A DNA stretch of 64,000 nucleotides, taken from the NCBI RefSeq assembly GCF_003148665.1, contig NZ_QGGQ01000002.1, positions 372,001 through 436,000 on the forward strand, read 5' to 3'. Of this stretch, positions 1-18,458 are shown piece after piece. The notes under the pieces are model-generated. The model made no database searches. It saw nothing but the letters and a program-made list of their open reading frames with translations, and was not told the origin of the DNA. A program made the translations under genes and the position numbers. The stretch comes from Maribacter polysiphoniae (GTDB lineage: Bacteria; Bacteroidota; Bacteroidia; Flavobacteriales; Flavobacteriaceae). Position 1 is the stretch's first letter; the number at the start of each line of letters is the position of its first letter.

Positions 1-502
1 AATAATTAAGAAAGGCTCTCCGAAAATCATCCTACAGAAAAGTATGATTTACCTCTCTTTATCAGTAAAGACCTTTGGCTCCAATAATCTTATTTTTTCT
101 CATTTAGAAAGTTCTATGAATGTTCGCAATACTGATTTTCATATGCGACACTTTTCTTAAAACTACCTCAAATATTCATGTTATTGTGAAAAGAGTCAGG
201 CATTGAATCAATGCCAATAATATCAATAGTATATTTGACCTATAGGGACATAGACCTAAGCTATATTCTTTCTTTGACGCCTTACAGATAGTTTTCAAAA
301 GACTATTCGATTCTTTAATACCTTACTCCAATTCCCAATACATAATTCAATCTTTTCATAATCATGTATTTTATTTGTGAAACCTGCTTGCAAAACAAGA
401 CAGATGTATTAGAACAAAAATTTTCATCACACCATAAAAAGAACCTCCAGCCCTCCAAAAAAAAATAGATTCAAGCTATTTTTTAAACAACTCGTATGAA
501 AG
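1..502. other. AT-rich intergenic region without a gene
   Basis: About 500 bp of AT-rich sequence lies beyond the end of the glycosidase operon. I see no open frame that reads like protein, no tRNA and no repeat shared with the rest of the window. The only structured element is a short AT-rich hairpin next to the GH47 stop codon, listed separately. Confidence 0.6.
461..483 (-). terminator. possible weak terminator of the N-glycan operon
   Basis: The arms AAAAATAG and CTATTTTT surround a 7-nt loop about 20 bp past the stop of the last operon gene. The stem is AT-rich, so it is only a weak candidate for an intrinsic terminator. Confidence 0.3.
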
Positions 503-1945
503 CTATTTCACCTGGTATCCCAATCTTTCCGGGGCCTGTTCGGCATCAAAATCCGATTTTTTGAAAGTGTGGGCCTCCGTATTGAACACATGGTCCTCAA
601 AAACAAAATCCCCCTGTGAAAAACCGATATAGAAATACTTCATGGTTTCGGCAAAGAAATACGTGGCCAAATAGTCCTTGGGCTCCTTGGTCCTAACATC
701 ATTGATCGAGTGAAAGGCAACCTCCCCTTTACAGTGCTTTTTTATATCCCTCCAATATTTTTGAAGCATATCCATGTATTCATCCTTTCCTGTTATTTCA
801 TGTAAATAGTAGGCAGATTCTATGATTTCCGGATTGATCTCAAAATTGGCATATTCAACGGTATCCTTTCCATAATGATATCTGGTCGGTAACATTTCGT
901 ATTTGTCCCAAAGCCAGTCCCACGTTGCCTCGGATTTTTCCGCAGCCTCCACATCACCGGATACCGCCTGTATTGCCGGCCAGAAGGCATCGTAAAGGGA
1001 AACGGACCTCTTTAGGTTTTCACCGGTATGCATATCCACAATCGTGTAAAAGGTTCTTCCTTTATATTCATCCAAAAGATAGGTGTTGATCTTATCCAGG
1101 CTATAGTCCCAAATTTCCTTGATCTCGGGATCTGGGAATATCATATAACTTTTGTACATATACTCATAATAGGCATCTACCCCAGCTTGCAAATGGTGCC
1201 ATTGGGTACCTTCCCATTCCCCGGTAACCACATTGATATTTTCCCCAGGCAATCCTATTTCCGACTTTCGTTCAAAAACGGCTTTTGTGGCCCCCTTTGC
1301 TGCTTGGTAATATTTTGGGTCTTTGGTGTAATAACTTAAAATTCCGAACTCAAACAAATAGGTCGCAGCCTGTGCCACATTGACGACATCGCCCTTACCC
1401 TCGCCGTGGTTACCCCCGGTTTTACCCGTCCTAAGATTTACGGAATGAAAAGGAATACCTGTGGGGGAATCAAAAGCCGGTAATATCCGATCCCCAAAAT
1501 CCCTTGCCTTTTCAAGAATCGCCTCATTCCGGGTATAATGATACATCGATAGGAGGCCTCCCAAAATCCTGATATTTACCTCAAAGACCTGAACATACTG
1601 ATCTTTATCAAAATCCATGGCCAGGGCATAGTCCTCAATTTCCTTGGCCTCTTTATCCAAGCCCATTACTTTTAAAGTACTATAGGCATCTATTGGCGAA
1701 ATACCCAAGGAATGTTCATACCAATCAAAGGACTTTTTAGAAAGTGGCAGCAATACATCATGACCCCATGCGTAGGTTCTATAATCATTCCACGAACGCA
1801 AGGTCTCGGCCTTGATCTCAGCTTGTAATGCCGTTATTGCCGAATCCTTTTCTTTCCCAGGAGTCCCAACTTTTGATGAGTTGACCTCTGATTTACATGA
1901 AACAAATGATAGGACCACAAGGGCCTTCAATACTATATTTTTCAT
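503..1945 (-). CDS. GH47 alpha-1,2-mannosidase, lipoprotein
   Basis: 480-aa enzyme predicted to hydrolyse alpha-1,2-mannosyl linkages of Man9-type N-glycans by inversion with Ca2+. GH47 hallmarks: AWGHD near residue 59, the run from VFEVNIRILGGLL to PTGIPFHSVNL, NPEIIESAYYL, and close to the C-terminus FNTEAH (about residue 455), whose Thr binds calcium in the family. The start was set at 1945 because MKNIVLKALVVLSFVSC is a good lipoprotein signal (Cys17). An upstream in-frame ATG at 1981 would add charged residues and overlap the previous gene. It is the last gene of the nine-gene operon, 10 bp after a GH92 gene. GH47 is mostly eukaryotic and is known from few bacteria, so acquisition by transfer is possible. 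Attachment to a membrane follows from the lipobox; which membrane is not shown. Confidence 0.9.
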   Translation of the reverse strand: MKNIVLKALVVLSFVSCKSEVNSSKVGTPGKEKDSAITALQAEIKAETLRSWNDYRTYAWGHDVLLPLSKKSFDWYEHSLGISPIDAYSTLKVMGLDKEAKEIEDYALAMDFDKDQYVQVFEVNIRILGGLLSMYHYTRNEAILEKARDFGDRILPAFDSPTGIPFHSVNLRTGKTGGNHGEGKGDVVNVAQAATYLFEFGILSYYTKDPKYYQAAKGATKAVFERKSEIGLPGENINVVTGEWEGTQWHHLQAGVDAYYEYMYKSYMIFPDPEIKEIWDYSLDKINTYLLDEYKGRTFYTIVDMHTGENLKRSVSLYDAFWPAIQAVSGDVEAAEKSEATWDWLWDKYEMLPTRYHYGKDTVEYANFEINPEIIESAYYLHEITGKDEYMDMLQKYWRDIKKHCKGEVAFHSINDVRTKEPKDYLATYFFAETMKYFYIGFSQGDFVFEDHVFNTEAHTFKKSDFDAEQAPERLGYQVK

Positions 1946-1955
1946 TCTTATTCTT

Positions 1956-4181
1956 TTAATCGATTTGGATTTTTGAAGCATTTACTAATTTTTTGTGGGA
2001 TATAAAATATTCTTTATGGGGTTTCCCATTGATAAGGATTTCACCGATAGGCTCCTTATTTTCGACCGTATTGGACAATATCACAAGCTTTCTCCCCTTA
2101 TAGTATTCATCATCCAAATGAATCGTTATTTTATCAAATTTAGGCTTGACCAAAGCATACATGGGTGCCGCGGGGTTCACAGGATATATTCCCATCATGG
2201 AAAAAACGGCCCAGGCCGACATGGTACCGGTATCGTCATTTCCAGGAATACCATCCGGACTGTTCTTAAAATGTTCGTCCAATAGATCCGATACCAATTT
2301 TTGGGCCCTATATTCTTTCCCCTTCACATAATTGAAAAGATAGGGATAGGCAATATCCGGTTCATTGGCCATATCAAACTGGCCCTTGTCGAATACATCC
2401 TGTAATCGTTGTGCAAAAGGTTTTGGTCCTCCCATTAATTTCATCAACCCTTTAATATCATGGGGAACCATAAAGGTATACTGCCATGCATTGCCCTCGA
2501 TAAAACCAAGGTTCTTTTCAAAATTGGCCCCCGACTCGGGATTATAGGGAGTTAACCAACTACCATCATCATTTCGGGGCCTAAGGAGGTTGAATTCCTT
2601 ATCGAACAATTTCCGATACGAAATGGCCCTTTTACCAAAACGCTTATAATCGCTTTGTTCCCCCATTTCCTTTGCCAATTGGGCTATGGCATAATCGGCA
2701 ATATTATACTCTTGGGTGGTGGACACCGATCCACTATTGGTGGTTTTTGTGGTGAGATATCCCTTCGTAATATAATCTTGAAGTCCGGGCCGTAACGGAT
2801 TGTCCTTTAATTGCCCAGCGCTTTTCAGCATGGCCTTATAGGCCTTTTCCACATCAAAATCACGGATTCCCTTTAAATACGTATCCGCAATAATAATTCC
2901 CGCTGGGTCACCGACCATGGTTGTCGTTTCGGTGGCATTTAATTCCCATTTGGGAAGCCAACCACTTTCATCATAGATCTGAAGCATACTCTTCACCATA
3001 TCCGATTGCTGTTTGGGATATACCAAACTCATCAATTGGTGTAAATTGCGATAGGTATCCCAAAGGGAAAATACCGTATACCGGGTACCTTTCGTTTTTA
3101 AGGTCTCCCGGGTTTTCATTTTGGGGTAGTCCCCATTGACATCGTTCAAGGTATTCGGATGTATCAAGGTATGGTACAAAGCGGTGTAAAATACAGTCTT
3201 ATCCTCTTCGCTCCCTCCTTCAACCTCGATCTTGGACAGGTATTGGTTCCATTCCTTTCGCGCATCAAGCAATATTCCATCAAAAGTCCTATCCAACGTT
3301 TCCTTTTCCAAATTCTCCCTGGCATTATCCAAACTAACGTATGAAATGCCGATTTTCATTTCCACTTGTGTCGGACTATCAAAATTGTAACGCATGTAGG
3401 CGCCAATGCTATCACCGACCACTTCCTTGGTAAAACCTTTCATCAGTCGGGTTTTACCATTATATCCCATCCATTCAGATTCGACTCCCTTATATGTTGT
3501 GGGCTTTTTCCAAACCCCAAATTCATCCGCAGCTTTGGAGAATCGCGCTACGAAATATACAGGGTAGGCTTCTTCCGGCTTATAATAGCAAAAGGAACCT
3601 ACGGAACGTACTCCCTCGATTTCCGTGGCAGATACCACTTTAACATTGGCACCTTCCTCATTGGTCAGCCCCAATCCCAAATTGAGTAGAATATTCGACT
3701 CCCCAGCAGGAAATGAATACTTACTGACCCCTACCCTCGTGGTTGCCGTGGCCTCCACCTTAATATTATATTTGTCCAAAACATTGGAATAATAGCCTAC
3801 CTGGCTAATCTCATTGGAATAGGTACTACCATACTCCAGGTGGTCGGTAATGATCTTACCCGTAGTCGGCATCGTCAAAATGACCCCTAATTCCGGGCAG
3901 CCCACCCCACTCAGATTCACATGGCTAAAACCCGTTAAAAAGGTGTTCTCGTGTACATAAGGGGTAGATAGCCATCGACTGTCTTTCTCCAAGGGAAGAT
4001 TTTGAGGCCCTGCCACATTGAAGGGAGATACATTTGCCATACCACGGACTGCAATTGGCCCTGGATTGGTGGTTCCGAAATTGGAGGTGCCGATAAAAGG
4101 GTTCACATAGTCGACAGGGGACTTTTGGGCCCACGAAATACTAAAAATCAACAAAAATACTACTGTTAGTTTATACTGCAT
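1956..4181 (-). CDS. GH92 exo-alpha-mannosidase (secreted, divergent HGNEP region)
   Basis: 741-aa Ca2+-dependent alpha-mannosidase with a type I signal peptide (cleavage expected near SWAQ), unlike the other three GH92 proteins here, which are lipoproteins. The N-terminal beta-sandwich opens with YVNPFIGT (about residue 25). The catalytic (alpha/alpha)6 part has EGNAWQY (about 562, general acid Glu in the family) and GNDDTGTMSAW (about 647, base Asp). The stretch that reads HGNEPSHH in alpha-1,2-type members is MANEPDIA here (about 604). The +1 subsite therefore differs and another linkage (alpha-1,3 or alpha-1,6) is plausible, though not proven. It lies between the PNGase F-like gene and the GH47 gene in the operon. 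Confidence 0.93.
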   Translation of the reverse strand: MQYKLTVVFLLIFSISWAQKSPVDYVNPFIGTSNFGTTNPGPIAVRGMANVSPFNVAGPQNLPLEKDSRWLSTPYVHENTFLTGFSHVNLSGVGCPELGVILTMPTTGKIITDHLEYGSTYSNEISQVGYYSNVLDKYNIKVEATATTRVGVSKYSFPAGESNILLNLGLGLTNEEGANVKVVSATEIEGVRSVGSFCYYKPEEAYPVYFVARFSKAADEFGVWKKPTTYKGVESEWMGYNGKTRLMKGFTKEVVGDSIGAYMRYNFDSPTQVEMKIGISYVSLDNARENLEKETLDRTFDGILLDARKEWNQYLSKIEVEGGSEEDKTVFYTALYHTLIHPNTLNDVNGDYPKMKTRETLKTKGTRYTVFSLWDTYRNLHQLMSLVYPKQQSDMVKSMLQIYDESGWLPKWELNATETTTMVGDPAGIIIADTYLKGIRDFDVEKAYKAMLKSAGQLKDNPLRPGLQDYITKGYLTTKTTNSGSVSTTQEYNIADYAIAQLAKEMGEQSDYKRFGKRAISYRKLFDKEFNLLRPRNDDGSWLTPYNPESGANFEKNLGFIEGNAWQYTFMVPHDIKGLMKLMGGPKPFAQRLQDVFDKGQFDMANEPDIAYPYLFNYVKGKEYRAQKLVSDLLDEHFKNSPDGIPGNDDTGTMSAWAVFSMMGIYPVNPAAPMYALVKPKFDKITIHLDDEYYKGRKLVILSNTVENKEPIGEILINGKPHKEYFISHKKLVNASKIQID

Positions 4182-4228
4182 GTTACCTGATTTTTAACCT
4201 CTTAAACCCTAAATGAATATATGTTAAG

Positions 4229-5557
4229 TTACTCTGTGTATGTGATATATGCTGAAACAAGCCAATGATTGAATTGGTCCTTTTTATTGGCGGTCCCAGG
4301 TATTTTAACCTGTAATCCGTGCAATCCCTTTTTAAGTTCCCCCAAGGGAATCCTATAGGGCATTACACTAGAACCGGGGCACCAATTTGACCTTGATAGG
4401 TCAGAAGAAGCCAAACGTTCTTCAATTTCCTTGAATTCCCGTTCAAAATTTTCATTGTAGGCATAAGCGGAATCTTTCTTCGTCCATACCCCGGAAGAAG
4501 GGTTAAACCTTCTGAATGAAGCACAATCATCCCGCCAGGGGATCTTGCTTAACACCAATTTTGAATCCAAAAACACTTCGTTTTTTAATTTAATGAATTC
4601 ATCGCCTCCACTATGACCTCCATGCCCTGTTGTTGTATAATACAAATCCACATTCCTCAATTCCTGTTTTGTCCTAAAATCCAAATCAAGGGTCGTGGCA
4701 GCAAAGAAATCCGGTATTTTTTGACCCTCAACATAGTACACCGTATTCAGTAAGGGCATAACTTTCAATTTAGGTCTTGGCCTTCCTGAATATTTTAATG
4801 ATACATCCACGGAATACCCTTCGGGGGTCCAGGTATCTATCCATATTCCAATATAGAACTCCCCGGTTACCACAGATTCCAGTTCGGAGATATCCTTCTC
4901 CCAAACTACTTCGTTTTCCCATTTGGGGATATAGACCGGTCTGTTATATTCGATTTTGGGATACTTTTTTTCATCACTATAATGTCCTACCCCAAACGGG
5001 GACATAAAACGCATTAATTCCAATGCGGGCACATAATCATCGGTTTTCAAAATCCCTCCATACCCCTTATCCACAATCGAATTTTCAGGAAACTTTTCCT
5101 TACCTAAGGATACATCGACAACATCTATGAGTTCTGGATTGGTAACTACAAAACAGGAGCCGGATTTATCCCACTTATCCCCATTGGACCTGAGCTTGAC
5201 CTCAACCGAAACATCAGTTCCCTTCTTATAAACAGGGACTTTTATTTTTCTATAAATTACGCGTCCATTTTGCAATCTTTTCACCGTAGTGGTATCCCCT
5301 GTTTCACCCCCAAAATTTACAGGCTGATTCTTAAAAACCCCAACACTGAATTCTTTAGGTTCCTGAAAAGGCGAATTATACTTTATAGGGTCAGTCCCTA
5401 ACCTACCACTATGTTGTCTTTCAACAAACCTTACACCATCAAGGTGTTCAGGGGTATTTAGACTAGCATAATCAACCGAGGGGTTTTGGGCCATGACCGA
5501 TGCACAAAGGAACCCAAAGATCAATACAAACAATATAAGTAGTACTCTGTTCTTCAT
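4229..5557 (-). CDS. PNGase F-like peptide-N-glycosidase (N-glycan amidase)
   Basis: 442-aa secreted protein (signal peptide ending near ASVMAQ). Aligned by eye to Elizabethkingia PNGase F, it has GDKWDKSG where the family has its catalytic Asp, RFMSPFGVG, IDTWTPEGYSVD, GGDEF (second acidic residue conserved) and SNWCPGSSV. PNGase F hydrolyses the GlcNAc-Asn amide and frees the whole N-glycan. One oddity is that the family's TETW motif (Glu118 in PNGase F) reads IDTW here, an E-to-D change. The protein is about 100 residues longer than PNGase F, mostly at the N-terminus. It sits among four GH92, one GH47 and one GH130 gene, which strongly supports an N-glycan role. Activity is inferred and not shown. 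Confidence 0.85.
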   Translation of the reverse strand: MKNRVLLILFVLIFGFLCASVMAQNPSVDYASLNTPEHLDGVRFVERQHSGRLGTDPIKYNSPFQEPKEFSVGVFKNQPVNFGGETGDTTTVKRLQNGRVIYRKIKVPVYKKGTDVSVEVKLRSNGDKWDKSGSCFVVTNPELIDVVDVSLGKEKFPENSIVDKGYGGILKTDDYVPALELMRFMSPFGVGHYSDEKKYPKIEYNRPVYIPKWENEVVWEKDISELESVVTGEFYIGIWIDTWTPEGYSVDVSLKYSGRPRPKLKVMPLLNTVYYVEGQKIPDFFAATTLDLDFRTKQELRNVDLYYTTTGHGGHSGGDEFIKLKNEVFLDSKLVLSKIPWRDDCASFRRFNPSSGVWTKKDSAYAYNENFEREFKEIEERLASSDLSRSNWCPGSSVMPYRIPLGELKKGLHGLQVKIPGTANKKDQFNHWLVSAYITYTE

Positions 5558-5608
5558 AAAGTTATACCTTACAATTTCTTAATAACCAAAGTCCATAAAA
5601 CCCGTATT

Positions 5609-7942
5609 CTATTTTGAATTACTCAAGGAATAAGGCAATGCTTCCTCTGAAATGGCCCAATTCCTATTGGGGGCACTTCCCATTTCAAAAGAGAGTGTAC
5701 CTCCCTTTTGAACGGTCTCGGTTCCAATCCAAGTGGTATTGAATTCGGATCCATTCAACGAGGCACTTTGGATATAGGGTCTTCCCTTTCCGTTTGCATC
5801 TGCATTGATCGTAAAGGTGTTCCCATTCTGTAAATGCAATTTAACCTCATTGAACAATGGACTTCCAATAACATATTGATTGGTTGCCGGTGCCACAGGA
5901 TAAAAGCCCATAGCACTGAATACATACCAAGCCGAGGTCTGTCCGTTATCCTCATCACCACAATACCCATCAGGGGCAGGGGTATATAATTTGGTTAATA
6001 CCTCCCGAACTTTTTCCTGGGTCTTCCAAGGTTGTTTGGCATAATCATATAAATAGATCATGTGTTGTATGGGTTGGTTACCATGGGCATAGTTCCCCAT
6101 GTTCATGATCTGCATTTCCCGTATTTCATGAATGGTAAACCCGTAATAGGAATCGTCAAAATGGGGTGGCATTTCGAAAACACTGTCCAACATTCCCACA
6201 AATTCATCATCGCCCCCCATTAAATCGATAAGACCTTGCACATCATGAAAAACCGACCACGTATAGTGCAGGCTATTGCCCTCGGTAAAAGCATCACCCC
6301 ATTTTAAGGGATTGAAAGGGGTCTGAAACTGCCCATCCTTATTCTTGCCCCGCATCAATTTTGTCGATGGGTCGAATAGGTTTTTATAATTCAATGACTT
6401 ATCGTAATACACTTGGGCCAGACTATCCTTACCCATCGATTGTGCCATTTGGGCAATCGTAAAATCGGCATAGGCATATTCTAGGGTACGTGCCGCATTT
6501 TCATTAATACCCACATCATAGGGCACATAACCTAGTTCATTATAATAATCGAGTCCTGCACGACCTACACTGTTGACCGGCCTACCCTCACTTTGGGTGG
6601 CATTTTTCAGTACGGCCTGCAATAGGGTTTCAGTATCAATACCTTTTACCCCGTTCAAATAGGCATCGGCGATAATAGGAGCGGAATTGGATCCGATCAT
6701 ACAATCGCGATGGCCTGGACTGGCCCATTCGGGCAACCATCCTGATTCTTTATACGTATTGGCCAAGCCGTCCATAATCTGCGCATTAATATCGGGATAC
6801 ATCATATTGAAAAATGGAAATACCGCCCTAAACGTATCCCAAAATCCGTTATCGGTGAACATATAACCATCTTCTACCTTACCGTTATACGGACTATAGT
6901 GTACCACTTTATTATTCGCATCGAATTCATAGAATTTTCTGGGGAACAGTAGTACCCTGTACAAACAGGAATAGAAGGTTTTCAACTCATCGGTATTTGA
7001 GGAAGTGACCTCGATCCTACCCAGTTCCTTTTCCCAGGCCGCAGTGGCCTTTTCCCTGGTCGCCTCAAAAGTATCCGTTCCGATTTCACGATTTAAGTTG
7101 AGTTGCGCCTGTTCAGGACTAATGAAGGAAGATGCCACTTTTACATGTACGGCCTGTCCTTTCTTGGTCTTGAATCCGATAATGGCACCTACGTGATCCC
7201 CTTCGGCATCCAACGAATCTTCATTTAATTTCCAATCATCGTTCCAAGTATGGCCCACTTCGAAATCGGTATCGAATTCAGCCACAAAATAATTATGGAA
7301 ATTCTCAGGAACACCACCACTGTTATTTCTACAATACCCGATGATCTTTCTTTCCTTCGGCAATATTTTCACCATAGAACCCTTATTGAAGGCATCCAAC
7401 ATTATAAAGGACTTTTCATTTTCAGGAAAAGTAAACTTAAAATGAGCGGCCCGTTCTGTTGGCGTCACCTCAGCGACGACATCATAATCGGCCAAATACA
7501 CACTGTAATAATCGGGTCGTACGGTTTCCGCCTTGTGTGAGAAATAAGATTCACGCTCGTCTTCCTTGTATTTTAAATCGCCCGTTACCGCCATTAGGGA
7601 AAATGCCGCATAATCATTGATCCATGGACTGGGCTGGTGGGTTTGTTTTATACCCCTGATTTTTTTGTCATGGTACTTGTAGGTCCACCCATCCCCCATC
7701 TTTGAGGTCATGGGGGTCCAAAAATTCATGCCCCAGGGGGTGGCAATGGCCGGATAGGTATTTCCGTTTGAAAGACTAAAATCCGAATCGGTCCCCATGA
7801 GCGGATTAACATAGCCCAATACCTCCGCCGTGCCGCTTTTTTCGTTTGCAGCTTCACTAGAAGCCCTTTCTTCACATGCAGCAAAAAGAAAAAGTGCTGC
7901 CATGCCCACAATACTTGTTTTCAGTTGTTTTCCGATTTCCAT
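5609..7942 (-). CDS. GH92 exo-alpha-mannosidase lipoprotein, HGNQP variant
   Basis: 777-aa GH92 enzyme with lipobox LFAAC near residue 22. It has YVNPLMGT at the start of the beta-sandwich, EGNSLHYTW (about 554) in place of the usual EGNAWQY, and GDEDNGQTSAW (about 662). The HGNEP motif reads HGNQP (Gln about 623). In characterised GH92 enzymes the His-Glu pair of this motif contacts the +1 sugar of alpha-1,2 substrates, so Gln together with the changed WQ-to-LH pair points to a different linkage or substrate. It starts 2 bp after the stop of the upstream GH92 gene, so the two are surely cotranscribed. Confidence 0.93.
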   Translation of the reverse strand: MEIGKQLKTSIVGMAALFLFAACEERASSEAANEKSGTAEVLGYVNPLMGTDSDFSLSNGNTYPAIATPWGMNFWTPMTSKMGDGWTYKYHDKKIRGIKQTHQPSPWINDYAAFSLMAVTGDLKYKEDERESYFSHKAETVRPDYYSVYLADYDVVAEVTPTERAAHFKFTFPENEKSFIMLDAFNKGSMVKILPKERKIIGYCRNNSGGVPENFHNYFVAEFDTDFEVGHTWNDDWKLNEDSLDAEGDHVGAIIGFKTKKGQAVHVKVASSFISPEQAQLNLNREIGTDTFEATREKATAAWEKELGRIEVTSSNTDELKTFYSCLYRVLLFPRKFYEFDANNKVVHYSPYNGKVEDGYMFTDNGFWDTFRAVFPFFNMMYPDINAQIMDGLANTYKESGWLPEWASPGHRDCMIGSNSAPIIADAYLNGVKGIDTETLLQAVLKNATQSEGRPVNSVGRAGLDYYNELGYVPYDVGINENAARTLEYAYADFTIAQMAQSMGKDSLAQVYYDKSLNYKNLFDPSTKLMRGKNKDGQFQTPFNPLKWGDAFTEGNSLHYTWSVFHDVQGLIDLMGGDDEFVGMLDSVFEMPPHFDDSYYGFTIHEIREMQIMNMGNYAHGNQPIQHMIYLYDYAKQPWKTQEKVREVLTKLYTPAPDGYCGDEDNGQTSAWYVFSAMGFYPVAPATNQYVIGSPLFNEVKLHLQNGNTFTINADANGKGRPYIQSASLNGSEFNTTWIGTETVQKGGTLSFEMGSAPNRNWAISEEALPYSLSNSK

Positions 7943-7944
7943 AA

Positions 7945-10194
7945 TTATCTGTATATTTTATTTACTTCCGGAGAATTCAATTTTTTTCCATCTGCTTTTT
8001 TTGGATCGTCGGTCATCACATAGACCAATTCCCCACCGGCAGTAACCTCTTTGTGTGTTATAAAATTCCTATCCAGCGTAACCCCATTTAAAGTTACGTA
8101 TTCCACGAATTTATTCGCTTTCGAATAATTCTTTTGTATGACCCTTAGGGTCTTCCCTTTCCCTACGGATACCTCAGCCTCCTTAAACAGGGGAATCCCC
8201 AAATCATAGACACCCTGTGCGGGATTCACGGGATAAAAGCCCAGTGCCCCGAAAATATACCAGGATGACATTTGCCCGCAATCCTCATTACCACAATGGC
8301 CATTGGGAGCGTTGGCGTATTGTTCTTCCAGGATTTGCCGCACCAAGGATTGGGTCTTCGATGGCTGATCCAAATAGTTGTATAAATAGGCTACATGGTG
8401 GCTTGGTTCATTACCATGGGCATACTGCCCTATCATCCCTGTACTGAAAATCGGTAATTTGTCCCCCGGCTGTGGCGCATAGGTGAACATGGAATCCAAC
8501 TTTTGATTAAAACGTTCCTGACCTCCTGTTTTCGCAATGAGTCCTTCAATATCCTGGGGTACGAACCAGTAATACTGCCAGGCATTGCTCTCACAGAAAT
8601 AGGGAGAGTATTCCTTAGGGACAAACGGGGTTATAAATTTACCCGATCCACTTTTTGGTTGCAGCCATGATGTTTTTTCGTTGTAGAGGTTCTTCCAGTT
8701 TTCAGACCTGCTCAAAAATTCCTTATAATCCTTTTCATAACCCAAATCCTTGGCGAACATGGCAATGCACCAATCGTCATAGGCATACTCCATCGTCTTG
8801 GAAACCGACCAGTTTTCATGGGCATCATCTACGGGGATAAATCCTTTTTCCCTATAAACATCGATTTGTCTCCCATTGACCATCGCACTTTCCTTACATG
8901 CCTTATATGCCAACTCCTTATCAAACGCAAATCCTTTAAAATAGGCATCGACAATAACAGGTACCGCATGGTAACCGATCATCATATTGGTCTCATTGCC
9001 TTGCATGGACCATACAGGCAAAATTCCGGTCTCTTTATAATGCGCCAACATAGACTGTACCATATCGGGCACTTTTTCTTGCTGGATAATGGTGAATAAT
9101 GGATGTGCCGCCCTAAAGGTATCCCAGAGGGAAAAGGTATCGTAACGATCAAAACCTTTCGCTACACCAATTGTATCATTGGCCCCTTTATATTTACCAT
9201 CCAGGTCGCTCAACAAAGTAGGTGCCAACATGGATTGATACATCATGGTATAGAATATCCTCTTTTTGTCCGTATCGCTGCTTTTTACCCGTATTTTCGA
9301 CAATTCCTTTTCCCATACTTTCCGGGCCTTTTCCTTATATCGTTCAAATCCAAACCCTTGGGTTTCTTCGGCTACCGCCGCATCCGCCCCTTCAAAACCC
9401 GCTGTTGAAAGTCCCGTTTTCATAATCAAGCACTCTCCTTTCAACATCGCATAATTCAGCTCTATTTTAGTATTGATACCTCGAACGGGGGCATCAACCA
9501 CTTGGCCATCATTATACACCACATAGCTTTTAAACGGTCTGGAAAAATGCATTGAAAAATAGAGTCGTTGGTCTTTGGCCCAGCCCGTAGACATTCTATA
9601 CCCCCTTATAAAGGTATCATTGACCACCTCCAAATAGGTGTCGGTCGGCTTATCCCAATTTAAGGCATAACCCAAGTCGATATGGATTTTTGTACTATCA
9701 TCCTGGGGAAAGGTATAACGATGAATACCTACCCGCCTGGTTGCGGTCATTTCCGCTTTAATATCTAAATCCAACAAATCGACCGAATAATACCCTGGAG
9801 ATGCCTTTTCCTTATCATGACTGAAGGTTGAATAGGGCCTATAACTATTCTCCTTGATTCTTTTATTTGACTTGCTGTTTGAGGGCATGACCAGGATATC
9901 ATAAAGATCTCCGGCCCCTGTTCCTGTCAAATGGGTATGCGAAAAACCACTGATTATGGTATCTGGATAGTAATAACCCGCAATCCTGTCCCAACCCGGG
10001 GTTCCGATATCCGGACTCAACTGCACCATACCATAGGGCATGGTCGCACCGGGATACGTATTTCCAGGTCCGTCAGTGCCTATAAACGGATTCACATATT
10101 GTGTGAGGTTTTCACCGTTCGTAGGTTCTTCCACCCCCTCTTTACAGGAAGAAAAAGCCAAAAGGAATATTGCAATGAAAAAATAGCGATTCAT
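7945..10194 (-). CDS. GH92 exo-alpha-1,2-type mannosidase lipoprotein
   Basis: 749-aa GH92 enzyme. The start was placed at 10194 (MNRYFFIAIFLLAFSSC, clear lipobox). A start at 10239 would put a basic stretch before the signal and overlap the preceding gene. Motifs in order: YVNPFIGTDGPGNTYPGA, SGFSHTHLTGTGAGDLYD, ESNAWQYYWFVPQD (family general-acid Glu), HGNEPSHH (about 590) and GNEDCGQMSSW (about 635). The intact HGNEPSHH is the pattern found in alpha-1,2-mannosidases of this family. Substrate trimming at the membrane surface is inferred from the lipoprotein signal and operon context. Confidence 0.93.
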   Translation of the reverse strand: MNRYFFIAIFLLAFSSCKEGVEEPTNGENLTQYVNPFIGTDGPGNTYPGATMPYGMVQLSPDIGTPGWDRIAGYYYPDTIISGFSHTHLTGTGAGDLYDILVMPSNSKSNKRIKENSYRPYSTFSHDKEKASPGYYSVDLLDLDIKAEMTATRRVGIHRYTFPQDDSTKIHIDLGYALNWDKPTDTYLEVVNDTFIRGYRMSTGWAKDQRLYFSMHFSRPFKSYVVYNDGQVVDAPVRGINTKIELNYAMLKGECLIMKTGLSTAGFEGADAAVAEETQGFGFERYKEKARKVWEKELSKIRVKSSDTDKKRIFYTMMYQSMLAPTLLSDLDGKYKGANDTIGVAKGFDRYDTFSLWDTFRAAHPLFTIIQQEKVPDMVQSMLAHYKETGILPVWSMQGNETNMMIGYHAVPVIVDAYFKGFAFDKELAYKACKESAMVNGRQIDVYREKGFIPVDDAHENWSVSKTMEYAYDDWCIAMFAKDLGYEKDYKEFLSRSENWKNLYNEKTSWLQPKSGSGKFITPFVPKEYSPYFCESNAWQYYWFVPQDIEGLIAKTGGQERFNQKLDSMFTYAPQPGDKLPIFSTGMIGQYAHGNEPSHHVAYLYNYLDQPSKTQSLVRQILEEQYANAPNGHCGNEDCGQMSSWYIFGALGFYPVNPAQGVYDLGIPLFKEAEVSVGKGKTLRVIQKNYSKANKFVEYVTLNGVTLDRNFITHKEVTAGGELVYVMTDDPKKADGKKLNSPEVNKIYR

Positions 10195-10231
10195 ATGTAC
10201 CGAAAAAAGGACCTTACTTCTACGCATAGAC

Positions 10232-11311
10232 TCAATCAATACTTAAAAATTTACCATCATCCTTGATCATCAAGGTCTTATTTGTGAATGGACTCTTTGT
10301 CCAAAGGACGAATCCATCTTTTTGATACTCCACAATCGGGGTTATCTTTTTCCCCAAGATTTTTTTAGATGCCGCAAAGACCTGACCATTCGCTTTCTTC
10401 CCAACAACCGCTTGTTTGTCCACATCAATCATATCCCTGTACAATTCATAGAGGTACCATTTTATATGTTCATCCTCGGGTATCGTAAAAGTATCCGTGG
10501 CACCTACCTCCTTATCGGAAAAATACACATAGCCCCATTTTTCAGGCTCATGCATATTTATGACCCACTGTGGGGACCATACCCAATTGTATTCTGGTAA
10601 ATAGTTCCCCTTTGTATCCTTCTTTCTTGCATATCGCCCATCATTTAGATCAAATTCCCAATTGACCCTCGAAAAACCGAAACGCCAAAATTCATTGACA
10701 GGAATATCATTATGGGAATTGGCCTCTTTTAAAACCTCCCATGGAATGGCAATCTCAACACTCCACCCCTTATCGATATCGTTGGGATTGTTCAAGGTAC
10801 CATCTACATGTACCGCTGTCATTATACCTTGAATATCCCAACTATCAAGTACCTTTCCTTGGTTTCGGTAAGGTTTTGTCAAAAACAAATCCCACACCGT
10901 ATTCAAGGCATTCATCTCAAATTCCATATAATTATGGGTATCCCCATCGGGATCGATGAAAATCTCGAAATCGTTGTTATAGAAAATGACCGTATCCCTT
11001 TGTTTCAATGTCCCCCAAACGTTGGGCTCTTCCAATTTCGCGAAGAAATACAGGTACTTTTCATCCCATACCATTTTCATCTGCGTCTTGTAGGCAGGCT
11101 CTTTCTTTCCCTCGATATCAATAAAGGTATCGCTCCAATCGGCTTTTTTCCATGAATCCTCCTGGTCCATACCATCAACCTGGATTCCATCGATGGCCTT
11201 AAAGGACACATACTTGCGTGGAGCCTCTTGGGCAACCAACCAAACAGACCCCATATACAATATAAAAAGTATAAGGCTAATGACTTTCTTCGTATCCAGA
11301 TACCGATTCAT
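10232..11311 (-). CDS. secreted CBM9-like carbohydrate-binding protein
   Basis: 359-aa protein with a signal peptide (cleavage near VWLVAQ) followed by a CBM9-like domain: DGxxxEDSWKKADWSDTF, YLYFFAKLEEPNVWGT, NNDFEIFIDPDGDTHNYMEFEMNALNTVWDLFL, and GWSVEIAIPWEVL. No catalytic domain is visible, so it probably binds sugar or assists the enzymes. The last ~100 residues are charged and not recognised. Similar stand-alone CBM9-like proteins are common in Bacteroidota polysaccharide loci. It lies 13 bp from the GH130 gene in the N-glycan operon. Confidence 0.85.
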   Translation of the reverse strand: MNRYLDTKKVISLILFILYMGSVWLVAQEAPRKYVSFKAIDGIQVDGMDQEDSWKKADWSDTFIDIEGKKEPAYKTQMKMVWDEKYLYFFAKLEEPNVWGTLKQRDTVIFYNNDFEIFIDPDGDTHNYMEFEMNALNTVWDLFLTKPYRNQGKVLDSWDIQGIMTAVHVDGTLNNPNDIDKGWSVEIAIPWEVLKEANSHNDIPVNEFWRFGFSRVNWEFDLNDGRYARKKDTKGNYLPEYNWVWSPQWVINMHEPEKWGYVYFSDKEVGATDTFTIPEDEHIKWYLYELYRDMIDVDKQAVVGKKANGQVFAASKKILGKKITPIVEYQKDGFVLWTKSPFTNKTLMIKDDGKFLSID

Positions 11312-11324
11312 AACTTACGATGTT

Positions 11325-12287
11325 TTATAGACTATTCTTCTTCGTGAATTCAAGGATTTCCGAAATACGACCAAAGGCCATTGCCGTTACCGTATCCGCT
11401 GCCCCGTAATAGAGGGCTACTTTATCTTCCTCGATGGAATGTAGGGCCGCACAGGGGAATACCACATTAGGTACATCGCCAACCTGCTCATACAATTCAG
11501 TGGGTGCCAAGAGGTAAGGTTGTGTCCTGTATTTTACCTTATCCGGTTCGTTTTTATCCAAGATTGCGGAACCTACCGAATAACGGAATCCATTACAGGT
11601 ATTGATTACCCCATGGTAGAAAATAAGCCACCCTTCGTCGGTTAGGATAGGAACAGTGCCCGCACCTATCTTACAACTCTGCCAGGCACTATCCTGAAAA
11701 GGTGTTACTTTCATAACACATCTATGCTCACCCCAATATTTCATATCCGGACTGAAACTCACATAAATATCACCGAAAGGTGTGTGCCCATTATCACTGG
11801 GACGGCTTAACATGGCGTACCGACCATTGATTTTTTCAGGAAACAACACCCCGTTTCTATTGAAGGGCAAAAAGGCATTCTCACATTGGAAGAATTCCTT
11901 GAAATCAAAAGTATAAGCAATACCGATCGTAGGTCCGTGATACCCATTGCACCATGTGATCCAATATCGGTCTTCAATAAATACCACCCTAGGATCGTAT
12001 TTGTAGTCCGATTCGATCATGGATGTATTACCGGCCTGCATCCGAATGGGTTCATGGTTGATTTCCCAATGGATGCCATCTTTACTGAAACCAGCAAAAA
12101 TATTCATTTGTACCGCTTTGTTATCACATCTAAAAACCCCTGCAAAGCCATCTTCAAAAGGCACAACGGCACTGTTGAAAATACTATTGGATGAGGGAAT
12201 ATCGTTCCTGTTTATAATGGGATTCTCACTATATCTCCAAAGAACGTCATTACTATTATCGGGTCTATCTTGCCAAGGAATCTTCAT
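11325..12287 (-). CDS. GH130 beta-mannoside phosphorylase (Man-beta-1,4-GlcNAc type likely)
   Basis: 320-aa five-bladed beta-propeller enzyme without a signal peptide, so cytosolic. GH130 signs: an N-terminal [10 protein letters not shown] stretch, [15 protein letters not shown] (about residue 100, with the catalytic Asp region), [21 protein letters not shown], and [22 protein letters not shown]. The family phosphorolyses beta-1,4-mannosides. Members from N-glycan loci such as BT1033 act on Man-beta-1,4-GlcNAc, giving mannose 1-phosphate and GlcNAc. Genes on both sides process N-glycans, so this is the natural last step after the alpha-mannoses are removed. Assignment to that subfamily is inference. 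Confidence 0.88.
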
Positions 12288-12319
12288 GCTATCTCTTTCT
12301 TTAATTTAAGTTATACGAA

Positions 12320-14197
12320 TTAATTTGGGATTTTTCTGATTTTGTCCAACCAAGTGTATTTCAGGATGACGGAGGTCACTATAAAAATACCCAATGCCGC
12401 CCAGGTTTTTGGATAATCCCTGACCATAAAGTATATGGGCAGAACAATCATACTTGATTGCCAAATGATACCCACGGCACAATTACCCATATCCTTCCAA
12501 AATTCATTGTTCTTACTTATCGTTCTACCTTCTTCGTTCAAGGCTTTTACAACAGGCTTCCAAAAGCCCCAAGGGTGCACGTTCATATAGAATTTCCCCA
12601 AGGTCTCCATGCCTGTTGCCGGAGTGAGGAACGTACCTAGGAATGACCCCAATAAAGATACTGCAAAAATGACGGGAAAGACATAGATAGCAGGTATCTG
12701 GGCCAAATCATGCAACCATGTACCCACTTCCAGATTGGCCTTATTCTGATCCAGTATAAACTGCAAGGTCGCTATAAACAACCCAGAGGCCATACCCCAG
12801 AAATATCCCCATCCGTTAAACCGCCACCAAATCCATTTTAAAAAATTCGCGGCCACATACCCCCCATAAAGGGCGCTGGTTATCCAAAGGGTGAGTGAAT
12901 TTATGGATTCCGCAAAGAAGCCCATAAAAACCCCTAGGGCTACCACGACGACCGAAGCGATATGACTTGCCCGGATATAATGTTTATCGGAGGCTACGGG
13001 TTTAAAATATTTTTTATAGATATCATTTACGATATAGGCCGGACCTGCATTGACAAAGGCCGAAAAGGTACTCATAAACGCCGCCAACAATCCAGCCAAC
13101 AAGAGTCCCTTAATACCTACAGGGACATGGAAATTAATGACCTTCGGAAGCAATACTTCCAACTCTGCCCCCTTCAATCCGGCATCGGCGGCCATCCCAG
13201 GACCCAAAACCACTAAAGCAATGACGACGATACCTGCAATTAGCAAATACCTAGGGATATATAATACCAAAGCCGTAAAACCACTCATGTAAGCCGCTTC
13301 CTTTACGGTCCTTGTCGAAAGGATCCGTTGCATATCAAAACCGGGGGTAGGCCCAGCAATACTGGCAAAAAATCCTTTAAAAAGCGACATACCGATAAAG
13401 GCACCGAACATCTTATAGCCTTCGGAATCGATCAAATTGTTGAAGGCATTGTATTTACTACTCCAATGACTCCCCAGTTCCCAATCAAAAAAGACATTCT
13501 TCCATTCCTCTGAAATAATGGCGTTGATCTGTAGATCGGTAAATTCATAAAAGGCATACCCTGCCACGAGAATACCGGCTATGACCATGATAACATATTG
13601 CAATACCTCGGTAGCCACTACCGAGAACATCCCCCCTTTTACGGTGTACAAGGTCGTTAAACCGATAATGATCAAGGCATACGATTGCTCCGAGAGGAGC
13701 AAAACGGTTTCCCCGACCTGCCATGTGAAATCCCAAGGTAAAATTACGGTCATGAACTTCCCTACCCCTTCAAAAAAATAGGCAATGAACCCAACGGCCG
13801 CTATCACGGCAAAAATCGCAACAATACTGTGGGCGGCCCTACCTGCACGGTCATCGCCAAAACGGGTCAGCATCCATTCCGAACCGGTCATGATATTGGA
13901 TCTTCGAATCCACACCGCTAGGAACATCATGATGAATATCTGGTTCCAAACGGGCCACAGCCACATGAACATAAAACTCTTTACCCCGTATAAAAAAAGG
14001 ATTCCTACCATCCAGGCGGTGCCCGAAACATCGAACATACCCGAACCATTACTCAATCCCAAATAATACCATTTTATTCCGTTACCACCGAGGAAATATG
14101 ATTTTAAACCCTTAGATGCCCTTTTCGACACCCAGATACCTACAGCTAGGGTAAGGGCGACATAAATAAGGATTATGGATATATCTATTATGTTCAT
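12320..14197 (-). CDS. SSS-family sodium:solute (sugar) symporter
   Basis: 625-aa inner-membrane protein with about 14 hydrophobic helices. The N-terminal IILIYVALTLAVGIWVSKRASKG, SYFLGGN and GLSNGSGMFDVSGTAWMVG are typical of the solute:sodium symporter family (LeuT fold). It starts 6 bp after the first operon gene (GH92) and is followed by GH130, so it probably imports mannose or a small core sugar released outside the inner membrane. It is the only transporter in the operon. The substrate cannot be read from the sequence. Confidence 0.9.
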   Translation of the reverse strand: MNIIDISIILIYVALTLAVGIWVSKRASKGLKSYFLGGNGIKWYYLGLSNGSGMFDVSGTAWMVGILFLYGVKSFMFMWLWPVWNQIFIMMFLAVWIRRSNIMTGSEWMLTRFGDDRAGRAAHSIVAIFAVIAAVGFIAYFFEGVGKFMTVILPWDFTWQVGETVLLLSEQSYALIIIGLTTLYTVKGGMFSVVATEVLQYVIMVIAGILVAGYAFYEFTDLQINAIISEEWKNVFFDWELGSHWSSKYNAFNNLIDSEGYKMFGAFIGMSLFKGFFASIAGPTPGFDMQRILSTRTVKEAAYMSGFTALVLYIPRYLLIAGIVVIALVVLGPGMAADAGLKGAELEVLLPKVINFHVPVGIKGLLLAGLLAAFMSTFSAFVNAGPAYIVNDIYKKYFKPVASDKHYIRASHIASVVVVALGVFMGFFAESINSLTLWITSALYGGYVAANFLKWIWWRFNGWGYFWGMASGLFIATLQFILDQNKANLEVGTWLHDLAQIPAIYVFPVIFAVSLLGSFLGTFLTPATGMETLGKFYMNVHPWGFWKPVVKALNEEGRTISKNNEFWKDMGNCAVGIIWQSSMIVLPIYFMVRDYPKTWAALGIFIVTSVILKYTWLDKIRKIPN

Positions 14198-14203
14198 TTG
14201 GAA

Positions 14204-16453
14204 TTATTTAGTATCGTTTTGTACACCCCATTTTTTATTCGGTGTGGGTCCCATTTCAATTTCTAGTGTGCCCCCTGCTATGATATCCCCATGCATGATG
14301 TAGGTCTTATCCAATAGCTCACCATTCAATGTTACCGATTGCACATAAATATTTTCTTTGGAAGTATTCGGAGCCGAAATCACGAACGTTTTCCCGTTGG
14401 GTAATTTCAATGTCGTTTTCTCAAAGATCGGACTACCAATCTCATACTCCCCTGAGGCCGGATTCATAGGATAGATTCCCATCGCACTCATAATATACCA
14501 TGCAGACATTTGTCCGCAATCCTCATTTCCACTCAACCCGTCAGGCTGTGTGCTATATTGTGTGTCCAATATTTTACGTGCCCAAAATTGGGTGCGCCAC
14601 GGGGCACCTGCCTTATTGAGCATATAGGCAATATGGTGACTCGGTTCATTCCCATGGGCATATTGACCTATAAGTCCAGAAATATCGGGCGACACATTAT
14701 GACCGCTCAAGTCGGAATCCTCAGTAAAAAGTTGCTCTACCATGAGGGTAAATGGTTCTTTACTTCCATGTAGTTCGATCAATCCGTCCACATCATGCAA
14801 TACATACCAACTATGTTGCCAAGCATTGCCCTCGGTATAATCCGTATCCTCGATATGATTCGATGACTTTGGATCAAAAGGTTCATGGAAATGCTTTCCG
14901 TCTTTTGATTTACCCCGTAAGAATCCTGATTTGACATCGAAAAAATTCTGATAGGCCTTAGAACGCTTATCAAAATAGGCGTAATCCTCTTCGTTACCCA
15001 ATTTCTTCGCAACCTGGGCCACACACCAATCATTGTAGGCATACTCAAGACTTATGGAAACGGATTGATCCATTACCTCAAAGGGAATATAACCGTATTT
15101 CTTATACGCCTTTAATCCCCTTTCATCACCCATCATGGTCTCTTTCATCGCGGTAAAGGCCTTTTGCACATCAAAAGCCGTATGACCTTTCATAATGGCT
15201 TCCGCAATAATGGAAACGGAATGGTATCCTGGCATGGTTCCGGTTTCATTACCGGATAATACCCATATCGGCAAAACCCCACTTTCATCATAATAGACCA
15301 ACATCGATTTGACCATATCGTCCAAACGGTTAGGATCTATAATACTGAGTAACGGTGTTTCCGCTCTATAGATATCCCATAACGATAATGACGAATACAT
15401 CTTAAAATCGGTTTTGGCAATGCTATCGTTCTGCATTCTGAACTCCCCGTTCAAGTCATTGAACATCGTGGGGGCCACTTGGGCATGGTAGAGTGCGGTA
15501 TAAAAAATCGTCTTTAAGCTATCTATTGGGGTCTCCACTGAAATATTCGACAAGAGGCCGCTCCAATCCGCACGTGTTTTTTCCCGTACTTCACCAAAGC
15601 TTGGGCTACCCTGTAGTCTCAGGTTCTCCTTGGCATTTTCGATACTAACCGATGATACCGCTATTTTTACCTCAACACTGTCGGTATTTTCGTTAAAGAA
15701 AAACTGACCGCCCGCCTTAACCCCATTGACTTCGGTAGCCGCATCACCTATAGGGGCATCGCCCATTAGCTGTTGACCAATGATCGGGCTTGAGGTTTCT
15801 ATGACAAAGAATACCTTTTGGTTCTTGGCCCATCCGGTACTGAAACGATGGCCAACGATACGTTGACCGCTTTCCAATTTCAATTGACTTTCCAAGGGCT
15901 TGTCCCAATTGACCGCATAACCCAAATCGATGACAAAGGAAGGCTTGTCCGCCGCATTGTAGGTATACTTATGGTAGGCCACATAATCATTGGCTGTTAG
16001 TTCCACATCAATATTGGGGTCTTTGAGGACCACCTTGTAATAACCTGGTGTGGCTTCTTCTTCATTATGCGAAAAACGTGACGTATACGGTAGTGAATCC
16101 CTTGACTTTCCAAAAAGGGCAAGGTCCTTTTCTTCATTTGTGGGCATTAAAAGCACATCGGCCAAATCCCCAATACCCGTACCACTCAAATGCAATTGGG
16201 CAAAACCGGAAATTATGGAATCGGAAATATGGTATCCTGAACACCAATCCCATCCTGTTGTGCCATTATCTGGACTAGGTTGCACACGGCCAAAAGGGGA
16301 AGTTGCCCCAGGGTAGGTATGTCCGTGCCCGCCTGTTCCAATGAATGGATCTACATAATCAACAACGTTCTTTGTTTGTACAGTTTTTTCATTTTTTGCA
16401 CAGGACGAAACTATTGTCATTAAAATTAAAGCTAAAACAACGTGTTTTTTCAT
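14204..16453 (-). CDS. GH92 exo-alpha-1,2-type mannosidase lipoprotein, first operon gene
   Basis: 749-aa GH92 enzyme with lipoprotein signal MKKHVVLALILMTIVSSC. Motifs: YVDPFIGTGGHGHTYPGA, SGFAQLHLSGTGIGDLAD, EGNAWQHSWYVLHD (general-acid Glu), HGNEPSHH and GNEDCGQMSAW. HGNEPSHH is intact, as in alpha-1,2-specific members. It is first in the nine-gene operon and reads away from the LytTR two-component system, with 161 bp between them. That gap must hold the operon promoter. I found no exact TAnnTTTG box there on the minus strand. Confidence 0.94.
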   Translation of the reverse strand: MKKHVVLALILMTIVSSCAKNEKTVQTKNVVDYVDPFIGTGGHGHTYPGATSPFGRVQPSPDNGTTGWDWCSGYHISDSIISGFAQLHLSGTGIGDLADVLLMPTNEEKDLALFGKSRDSLPYTSRFSHNEEEATPGYYKVVLKDPNIDVELTANDYVAYHKYTYNAADKPSFVIDLGYAVNWDKPLESQLKLESGQRIVGHRFSTGWAKNQKVFFVIETSSPIIGQQLMGDAPIGDAATEVNGVKAGGQFFFNENTDSVEVKIAVSSVSIENAKENLRLQGSPSFGEVREKTRADWSGLLSNISVETPIDSLKTIFYTALYHAQVAPTMFNDLNGEFRMQNDSIAKTDFKMYSSLSLWDIYRAETPLLSIIDPNRLDDMVKSMLVYYDESGVLPIWVLSGNETGTMPGYHSVSIIAEAIMKGHTAFDVQKAFTAMKETMMGDERGLKAYKKYGYIPFEVMDQSVSISLEYAYNDWCVAQVAKKLGNEEDYAYFDKRSKAYQNFFDVKSGFLRGKSKDGKHFHEPFDPKSSNHIEDTDYTEGNAWQHSWYVLHDVDGLIELHGSKEPFTLMVEQLFTEDSDLSGHNVSPDISGLIGQYAHGNEPSHHIAYMLNKAGAPWRTQFWARKILDTQYSTQPDGLSGNEDCGQMSAWYIMSAMGIYPMNPASGEYEIGSPIFEKTTLKLPNGKTFVISAPNTSKENIYVQSVTLNGELLDKTYIMHGDIIAGGTLEIEMGPTPNKKWGVQNDTK

Positions 16454-17745: not shown

Positions 17746-18458
17746 TGGATTTAAAAGTGATTATTGTAGATGATGAACCATTGGCCATCAATGTAATAAA
17801 GAACTACATCGGACAAGTTAAGGAACTGGAACTTGTTGAGACGTTCTCCAATGCCGTGGATGCATCAACCTTTCTACAAAGCCATGAGGTCGATATCATT
17901 TTCTTGGATATCAATATGCCTATTTTAGATGGCCTCGAATTCTTAAAGACCTTACACGAAGCCCCGTTAATCGTCATTACGACCGCCCATGAGGAGTTCG
18001 CTTTGGAGAGTTTTGAATTGGAGGTCATCGATTATCTGGTAAAACCAATTCCATTTCCCAGGTTCTTAAAATCGGTCAATCGAATCCTAAAACTAAAACA
18101 GGCCCATGGCCCAACCGAACGAAACAACGCCAACGAACACCCCAGTATTTTTGTCAAGGTAGATAAAAAGAAATTGCAGAAAATCTATTTGGATGAAATA
18201 GTGGTCGTGGAAAGTTTAAAGGATTATATCCGCATCAAAACCACCACAGGAAAATATATAGTCCATAAAACCTTGAGTAGTTTTACCGAAGAACTGCCTG
18301 CCGACCAATTCATTCGCATCCACCGATCCTTTACCATCAGCATCGATAAGGTGCAGGTCGTGGAAGGCAACAGTCTCGAAATCGACAATACCCGTTATAC
18401 CATAGGACGAAGTTATTTAAATGACGTAAAAGCCAAAATACTGAACAATAGTATTTAA
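17745..18458 (+). CDS. LytR/AlgR-family response regulator (REC-LytTR)
   Basis: 237-aa partner of the upstream kinase. The receiver domain covers residues 1-120 with acidic pocket DDEP, phospho-acceptor Asp in IIFLDINMP (about 54), Thr in ITTAHEEFA and Lys in YLVKP. A LytTR DNA-binding domain covers about 130-235 (IFVKVDKKKLQKI, LKDYIRIKTT, FIRIHRSFTISI). LytTR proteins bind paired short direct repeats. The likely targets are its own promoter or the divergent glycosidase operon. PULs are more often controlled by hybrid two-component, SusR or ECF systems, so the pairing is notable. Confidence 0.92.
   Translation: MDLKVIIVDDEPLAINVIKNYIGQVKELELVETFSNAVDASTFLQSHEVDIIFLDINMPILDGLEFLKTLHEAPLIVITTAHEEFALESFELEVIDYLVKPIPFPRFLKSVNRILKLKQAHGPTERNNANEHPSIFVKVDKKKLQKIYLDEIVVVESLKDYIRIKTTTGKYIVHKTLSSFTEELPADQFIRIHRSFTISIDKVQVVEGNSLEIDNTRYTIGRSYLNDVKAKILNNSI

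Follow-up and report, generated by a model that had tools for sequence, protein, structure and literature searches.

How can a bacterium free oligomannose glycans from N-glycoproteins when its genome encodes no recognisable endo-beta-N-acetylglucosaminidase? This question is raised by a locus of Maribacter polysiphoniae, whose genome (G000; 5.13 Mb, 99.96% complete) we examined through a stretch of 64,000 nt, bases 372001-436000 of contig NZ_QGGQ01000002.1 (C2), here called the window. Nine open reading frames (ORFs), all on the minus strand, fill window positions 503-16453 and are transcribed from 16453 in the order GH92a, SSF symporter, GH130, CBM9-like, GH92b, GH92c, PNGase F-like, GH92d and GH47 (Table 1). 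An initial annotation of the window had described nine genes of these families on one strand with gaps of 2 to about 52 bp, and this is borne out by the ORFs and the Pfam matches; the gaps measure 2 to 51 bp, provided that GH47 and GH92b start at a later methionine, which puts their gene ends at 1945 and 10194 and a lipoprotein-like signal at the N-terminus, the longest-ORF versions overlapping the preceding gene by 26 and 8 bp, respectively. With fairly good confidence, and judging from sequence comparison, we read the block as part of a polysaccharide utilization locus (PUL) for oligomannose N-glycans that works without a recognisable endoglycosidase, carries a module that we call type B, and derives from an ancestor that had the GH18 enzyme of another module, type A.

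The enzyme to which release would fall is the PNGase F-like protein. Its nearest solved structures are 3ks7 and 4qhb (E about 1e-110), which we take to be the group-1 PNGases of B. fragilis and B. vulgatus, and a comparison with PNGase F itself (1pnf) gave no significant match (E 1.3). In the alignment, its IDTW stretch faces IGNY of PNGF-II and IGNW of 7zgn, the glycine of which is presumably G380, judged by counting (chain position 351 plus an assumed offset of 29). Group 1, the Bacteroides type, has Asp at the position of Glu118 of PNGase F and type II has Gly (PMC9522356; here and below, papers with PMC numbers are cited from excerpts of their text), and because the Maribacter protein has Asp where PNGF-II has Gly, we assign it to group 1. 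The tested group-1 member BF0811 is described as freeing high-mannose and complex glycans, but not plant-type glycans (PMC9522356).

The four GH92 proteins differ in their nearest solved relatives. That of GH92a is 7zgm, which we take, from its deposition next to 7zgn, to be the GH92 of the Bacteroides massiliensis study discussed below, followed by BT3130; that of GH92b is BT3130. GH92d matches 7zgm with 399 bits in two stretches and lacks the YAHG stretch common to the other three, and it retains the presumed catalytic Glu and second Asp. GH92c alone keeps the PSPWINDY and IHEI stretches of BT3990 and, with them, the three +1-site residues Trp, His and Glu; the His-Glu pair is not present in GH92a, GH92b or GH92d. 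The presence of these three residues is given as the rule for GH92 alpha-1,2-mannosidases (PMC9522356). In comparison with relatives, GH92c also stands apart: it is 95% identical to that of G585 and 75% to those of G586 and G587, in which GH92b, PNGase and GH92d reach 85-91%, and a further recombination boundary at window 5609-7942 is possible.

UhgbMP, which reportedly comes from the metagenomic N-glycan cluster of Ladeveze 2013, is the best solved match of GH130 and is of the same type. Its nearest characterised member and a probable cytoplasmic place, no signal peptide being seen by eye, both point to a mannosyl-GlcNAc(2) phosphorylase (GlcNAc, N-acetylglucosamine), an activity that is predicted only. 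Since UhgbMP is listed as a mannosyl-chitobiose phosphorylase, this best match fits the PNGase route, and BT1033, another GH130 enzyme, acts on Man-GlcNAc (Man, mannose), the product of endoglycosidase action (PMC8950772). The initial annotation had called the protein BT1033-type, a fair guess that gives way to UhgbMP among the solved structures compared, BT1033 not being one of them.

Together, these assignments would give the following pathway. A SusC/SusD pair and a laminin-G lipoprotein encoded next to the block would bind and import the glycan or glycopeptide, the PNGase F-like enzyme would cut the intact glycan off asparagine, GH47 and GH92c would take off alpha-1,2-mannose and GH92a and GH92b alpha-1,3-mannose, the alpha-1,6-linkage that is left falling perhaps to GH92d. 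GH130 would phosphorolyse the core trisaccharide to mannose-1-phosphate and chitobiose, which a GH20 enzyme could split; three GH20 matches (one weak, 48 bits) and a single Asparaginase_2 gene are found in other parts of the genome, none of them in the window. Without an endoglycosidase, such a route would be complete only if Man-GlcNAc2 is a substrate of GH130, as it reportedly is of UhgbMP. An N-glycan pathway, the initial annotation's central claim, is well supported: the enzyme families and the closest solved structures agree with it, and so do the genes found at this position in relatives, which comprise GH18, DUF4838, GH29, GH85 in one relative and, judged by eye, glycosylasparaginase-like and GH20-like genes. 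That other alpha-mannosides, such as fungal or diatom mannan, form the main target and the PNGase is incidental seems very improbable to us. PNGase F and GH47 are N-glycan enzymes, and on these two, the UhgbMP-like GH130 and the GH18, DUF4838, GH29 and GH85 of relatives we rejected alpha-mannan as the main target; moreover, a Pfam scan of 19 proteins encoded in and around the locus reported no GH76, GH125, GH38 or sulfatase domain. The argument in favour of mannan is that some North Sea flavobacterial GH92-rich loci have been read as alpha-mannan loci (PMC6298971).

The nine genes are, however, incomplete as a locus. On the same strand, 709 bp past GH47 and just beyond the window edge, lie genes for SusC (1023 aa), SusD (512 aa) and a laminin-G/DUF4972 lipoprotein (620 aa), and a divergent histidine kinase/LytTR regulator pair, the likely sensor, begins at the other end of the block, 161 bp from GH92a. 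Kinase and regulator adjoin the same genes in L073, G032, G019, G142, G036, G121, G585, G586, G587, G588 and G594, and were not seen in the stretches read of G013 and G133. The locus thus has the SusC/SusD pair beside glycan-active enzymes and the sensor-regulator that mark a PUL, and the single dedicated pathway of the initial annotation has to be extended by these genes. SusD belongs to the same superfamily as BT3984 (E 1.8e-27), which is not its best match.

An endoglycosidase seems to have been present at this site. In the closest relative, G585, which we take as Maribacter aquimaris of the same genus, GH18, DUF4838 (GH163), GH3, GH29, SusC and SusD come after the same genes, without a change of strand. 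The DNA match between the window and this genome runs for 3.7 kb at 88% through GH92d and GH47, ends 44 bp past GH47, and resumes at the collinear position with 83 bp (77%, E 1.9e-11) on the 3' end of GH18; further on follow 528 bp (82%) in the SusC 5' region, 106 bp (72%) inside SusC and 224 bp (79%) past the lipoprotein gene, and this resumption beyond the lipoprotein gene indicates the same chromosomal site in both genomes. Translation of 266-346 gives 27 residues that are 63% identical to the C-terminal end of the M. aquimaris GH18, with a stop codon in frame (tblastn E 1.5e-4). Its score of 83 compares with a highest score of 52 in 300 shuffles, and the corresponding gap in G587 scores 32, under its own shuffles. 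By parsimony and because of this remnant, GH18 at the site appears to be the older state, since deleted in M. polysiphoniae. It had been stated that the window holds neither endoglycosidase nor hexosaminidase; the hexosaminidase half agrees with the GH20 matches elsewhere, whereas the endoglycosidase has apparently been deleted and its remnant is inside the window. A chance match, with an ancestor that lacked GH18 here and an original type B module, would be consistent with the shortness of the match (27 residues only) and with a type B-like module in another genus (G019, 56-71% identity). We hold it for highly improbable, since no shuffle reached the score, the collinear DNA match has the place, the strand and the gene end that one would expect, and GH18 adjoins genes of the locus in G585, G586, G032, G590, G591, G593 and G594. 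A GH18 match with an internal TAA in another genome of the genus (G594:C114:94037-95080) is possibly a second independent loss.

Genome-wide, neither GH18 nor GH85 nor DUF4838 gave a match in M. polysiphoniae, and of the GH18 or GH85 endoglycosidase expected of a locus of the B. thetaiotaomicron type only the remnant was found; the GH85 and DUF4838 models do recognise genes in relatives. The search covered these three families, and an endoglycosidase of a family that we did not recognise might still carry out release, the GH18 loss then being without consequence, a reading with which the action of BT1033 on an endoglycosidase product agrees. We consider it unlikely, because the PNGase has been kept (85-88% identical in G585, G586 and G587) and no other endoglycosidase occurs among the 19 scanned proteins.

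Comparison within the genus places the loss of GH18 in a wider pattern. A core of kinase, regulator, SSF, GH130 and CBM9-like genes recurs, CBM9-like adjoining GH130 in most of the loci read (G133 carries two, flanking GH130), and much of the nine-gene order is found again in relatives, which argues that the block is not a chance assembly; the initial annotation had proposed a search for this order. GH47 is present in two of the 12 genus genomes. Two forms of a release/uptake module occupy one chromosomal site: type A, GH18-DUF4838(-GH3)-GH29-SusC/D, with GH29 not in all, and type B, SusC/D/lipoprotein, carried by M. polysiphoniae and G587, both without GH18. G585, G586 and G032 have GH18 and DUF4838 with the other SusC/D, followed by GH29 in G585 and G586, and GH3 occurs in G585 alone. 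Against G585, core genes of M. polysiphoniae are 87-98% identical, SusC 37% and SusD 29%, and the lipoprotein has no match; against G587, the core reaches 75-97%, SusC 87%, SusD 89% and the lipoprotein 86%. PNGase was found in six of the 12 genomes and GH18 in seven: both in three (G585, G586 and G032), PNGase only in three (G000, G587 and G588, the last with a differing enzyme set around its PNGase), neither in two (G589, 68% complete; G592, 83% complete), and GH18 only in four (G590, G591, G593 and G594), an assignment that is unsure where the PNGase-lacking genome is fragmentary, as two are, G590 being 68% complete with GH18 on a 5-kb piece. In all four of the latter, GH18 lies beside GH92c or GH92d; three have DUF4838, and the longer pieces of G593 and G594 also hold GH130 and CBM9-like genes. 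We infer that recombination moved the modules. The SSF gene, too, seems to have been exchanged: the symporter of G586 (L131:7745-9616) is 52% identical to that at window 12320-14197, next to GH92a at 82% and GH130 at 91%.

From this pattern a further, more tentative idea can be drawn, which we would rather doubt than assert: at one site, the chemistry of release (by endoglycosidase, by amidase or by both) and the transporter of the outer membrane may be swapped jointly by recombination, so that close relatives would attack different bonds of the same glycoproteins. The type A SusC/D would then import what an endoglycosidase produces, and the type B pair what a PNGase acts on or produces (glycopeptide, or glycan in which chitobiose is intact). 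A strict rule by which absence of GH18 means a type B SusC is not supported outside the genus, where G036 and G142 do not fit; in G013 and G133, GH18 is present but more distant (34-35%). There, GH18 was sought with a single GH18 query at E 1e-6, by which distant GH18 could be missed.

Several points weigh against the PNGase-based pathway and its history as set out here. The SSF symporter would have to bring Man-beta-1,4-GlcNAc-beta-1,4-GlcNAc into the cytoplasm, a step that we infer, and neither it nor GH130 reaches an NCBIfam (equivalog) cut-off. In 14 control genomes, the GH18 search matched in six and the GH85 and DUF4838 searches in one each, and M. polysiphoniae may yet encode an endoglycosidase of another family. 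The specificity of GH92d and the role of the CBM9-like protein are guesses; with an E limit of 1, the latter matched a single solved structure (E 0.13), and its AlphaFold model, built from three sequences, was not used (mean predicted local distance difference test score 41). Signal peptides were judged by eye, with no predictor, as lipoprotein-like for GH92a, GH92b, GH92c and GH47 and type I export-like for the PNGase F-like, GH92d and CBM9-like proteins. A promoter of the Bacteroidota type (a consensus in three spellings) was not found in the GH47-SusC or the GH92a/kinase gap. The incompleteness of two PNGase-lacking genomes belongs here too, as do G036 and G142: their SusC proteins share no more than 35% and 30% identity, respectively, with the M. 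polysiphoniae protein, yet the stretches read show no GH18.

GH47 calls for separate treatment. The protein matches PF01532 with 332 bits and aligns with 4ayo over residues 50-460, and the stretches VFEVNIR, VDAYYEY and NPEI, taken to hold the GH47 catalytic residues, were located. Rarity in bacteria, as the initial annotation had it, is seen in our samples, all of which, like the genus count above, include the genome itself: a full-length GH47 occurs in 1 of 199 genomes of the family and 3 of 395 of the class, and any match in 8 (besides the full-length gene, one fragment with a stop and six weak partial matches) and 17, respectively. GH47 is thus a sporadic addition to the locus. A contig pattern scan with a GH47 alignment yielded 56 loci, the closest being that of M. 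aquimaris. The tree has 53 rows, namely 52 of the 56 loci and the M. polysiphoniae protein, L088, L119, L120 and L124 being left out because they have no GH47 ORF of at least 380 aa; L088 and L124 each have two adjacent GH47 ORFs, perhaps split genes. The proteins of M. polysiphoniae and M. aquimaris form a group of four with one Aquimarina record and a further Flavobacteriaceae record (support 99/99), inside a 21-member clade (100/100) of Flavobacteriaceae, Cyclobacteriaceae, Fulvivirgaceae, Flammeovirgaceae, Saprospiraceae and one Alteromonadaceae record. Thirteen of 50 inner branches were drawn open, and five long branches were flagged, none in this clade. The mixture of families in the clade suggests that GH47 spread by transfer. 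Two relatives, L096 (Alteromonadaceae title) and L109 (Beijerinckiaceae title), may represent transfer or mis-binned contigs.

Neighbours of the 56 GH47 loci, counted as lower bounds since stretches often ended at contig ends, include GH92 in at least 12, PNGase in at least two (L071 and L075) and GH130 in at least two (L071 and L073), and in at least two, both Carboxylicivirga, a type B-like SusC/D/lipoprotein follows GH47 with two genes between. In a related flavobacterium (L073:10001-16943), GH47 stands at the opposite end of the locus, between two MFS transporters, past the kinase/regulator pair. Roughly 9 kb from the GH47 of a Cyclobacteriaceae locus lies a partial GH18 (L076:20701-21366), which shares 67% identity with the M. 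aquimaris GH18.

Table 1. Features of the Maribacter polysiphoniae locus within the window, with the matches on which they are assigned.
Feature	Position	Strand	Basis
Remnant of GH18 gene, 3' end (last 27 codons, in-frame stop)	266..346	-	tblastn, DNA match, shuffles
GH47 alpha-1,2-mannosidase-like lipoprotein	503..1945 (longest ORF to 1981)	-	PF01532 E 8.3e-99; 4ayo E 7.6e-55; 94% to Maribacter aquimaris
GH92d, divergent alpha-mannosidase-like	1956..4181	-	PF07971/PF17678; best solved match 7zgm E 3.2e-118, two stretches
PNGase F-like amidase, group-1 type (Asp in IDTW)	4229..5557	-	PF09112, PF09113; 3ks7 E 4.7e-110; PNGF-II 4r4x E 2.1e-65
GH92c, predicted alpha-1,2-mannosidase, BT3990 type	5609..7942	-	best solved match 2wvx/2wzs, 1053 bits
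GH92b, alpha-mannosidase closest to BT3130 (6f8z)	7945..10194 (longest ORF to 10239, TTG)	-	Pfam and nearest structure
Exported CBM9-like protein	10232..11311	-	PF06452 E 8.8e-9, residues 45-198; recurs beside GH130
GH130 beta-1,4-mannoside phosphorylase-like, no signal peptide by eye	11325..12287	-	PF04041; UhgbMP 4udg/4udk E 4.5e-149
SSF-family symporter	12320..14197	-	PF00474 E 2.6e-27
GH92a, alpha-mannosidase closest to 7zgm and BT3130 (6f8z)	14204..16453	-	Pfam and nearest structures
Histidine kinase, divergent, probable sensor of the locus	16615..17745	+	PF06580; recurs beside locus in relatives
LytTR response regulator, partner of the kinase	17745..18458	+	PF00072, PF04397; recurs with kinase

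Further alpha-mannoside clusters lie elsewhere in the genome. A second (L010:635-14399, G000:C19) has four GH92 genes, GH43-like and alkaline phosphatase-like genes and a 733-aa protein without a Pfam match, and in a third (L011:6421-15957, G000:C1), two GH92 genes, of which one encodes 1085 aa and includes a CBM-like domain, are accompanied by genes for a GH94/GDE_C-like protein and a GntR regulator. Two partial GH92 matches of the same score and model range (G000:C21:11530-12678 and G000:C3:484557-485705) are perhaps a recent repeat or an assembly duplicate.

Among known systems, the high-mannose N-glycan locus of B. thetaiotaomicron, BT3983-BT3994, resembles the present one in applying a SusC/D pair and several GH92 enzymes to oligomannose, with GH92c closest to BT3990. 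It releases the glycan with a GH18 enzyme, said to work at the cell surface (PMC9522356), whereas the Maribacter locus appears to have lost GH18 and includes PNGase, GH47, GH130 and SSF. The plant N-glycan pathway of Bacteroides massiliensis shares a PNGase and a GH92, but its PNGase is of group 2 (Gly) and prefers core alpha-1,3-fucose, unlike the group-1 Asp enzyme found here (Crouch 2022, PMC9522356). N-glycan loci with GH18 and PNGase-based pathways are thus already known in Bacteroides (PMC9522356), and N-glycan genes have been reported in bloom bacteria (PMC10877868). The GH92/GH130-rich loci of North Sea Flavobacteriia are likewise rich in GH92, with mannose-rich N-glycoproteins as the suggested target, but the excerpts of that paper name no PNGase or GH47, note little conserved gene arrangement and report no exchangeable module (Kappelmann 2018, PMC6298971). 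Neither this locus with GH47 nor an exchange of release module and transporter turned up in our searches of the open-access literature.

Within a single genus, the same locus seemingly has an endoglycosidase only, both release enzymes, or a PNGase only, while its core recurs, and it may therefore serve as a natural experiment. It opens the question of whether the transporter fits the chemistry of release, and whether a single phosphorylase can act on Man-GlcNAc as well as on Man-GlcNAc2. The locus would also provide an example of a bacterial GH47 recruited into the breakdown of N-glycans.

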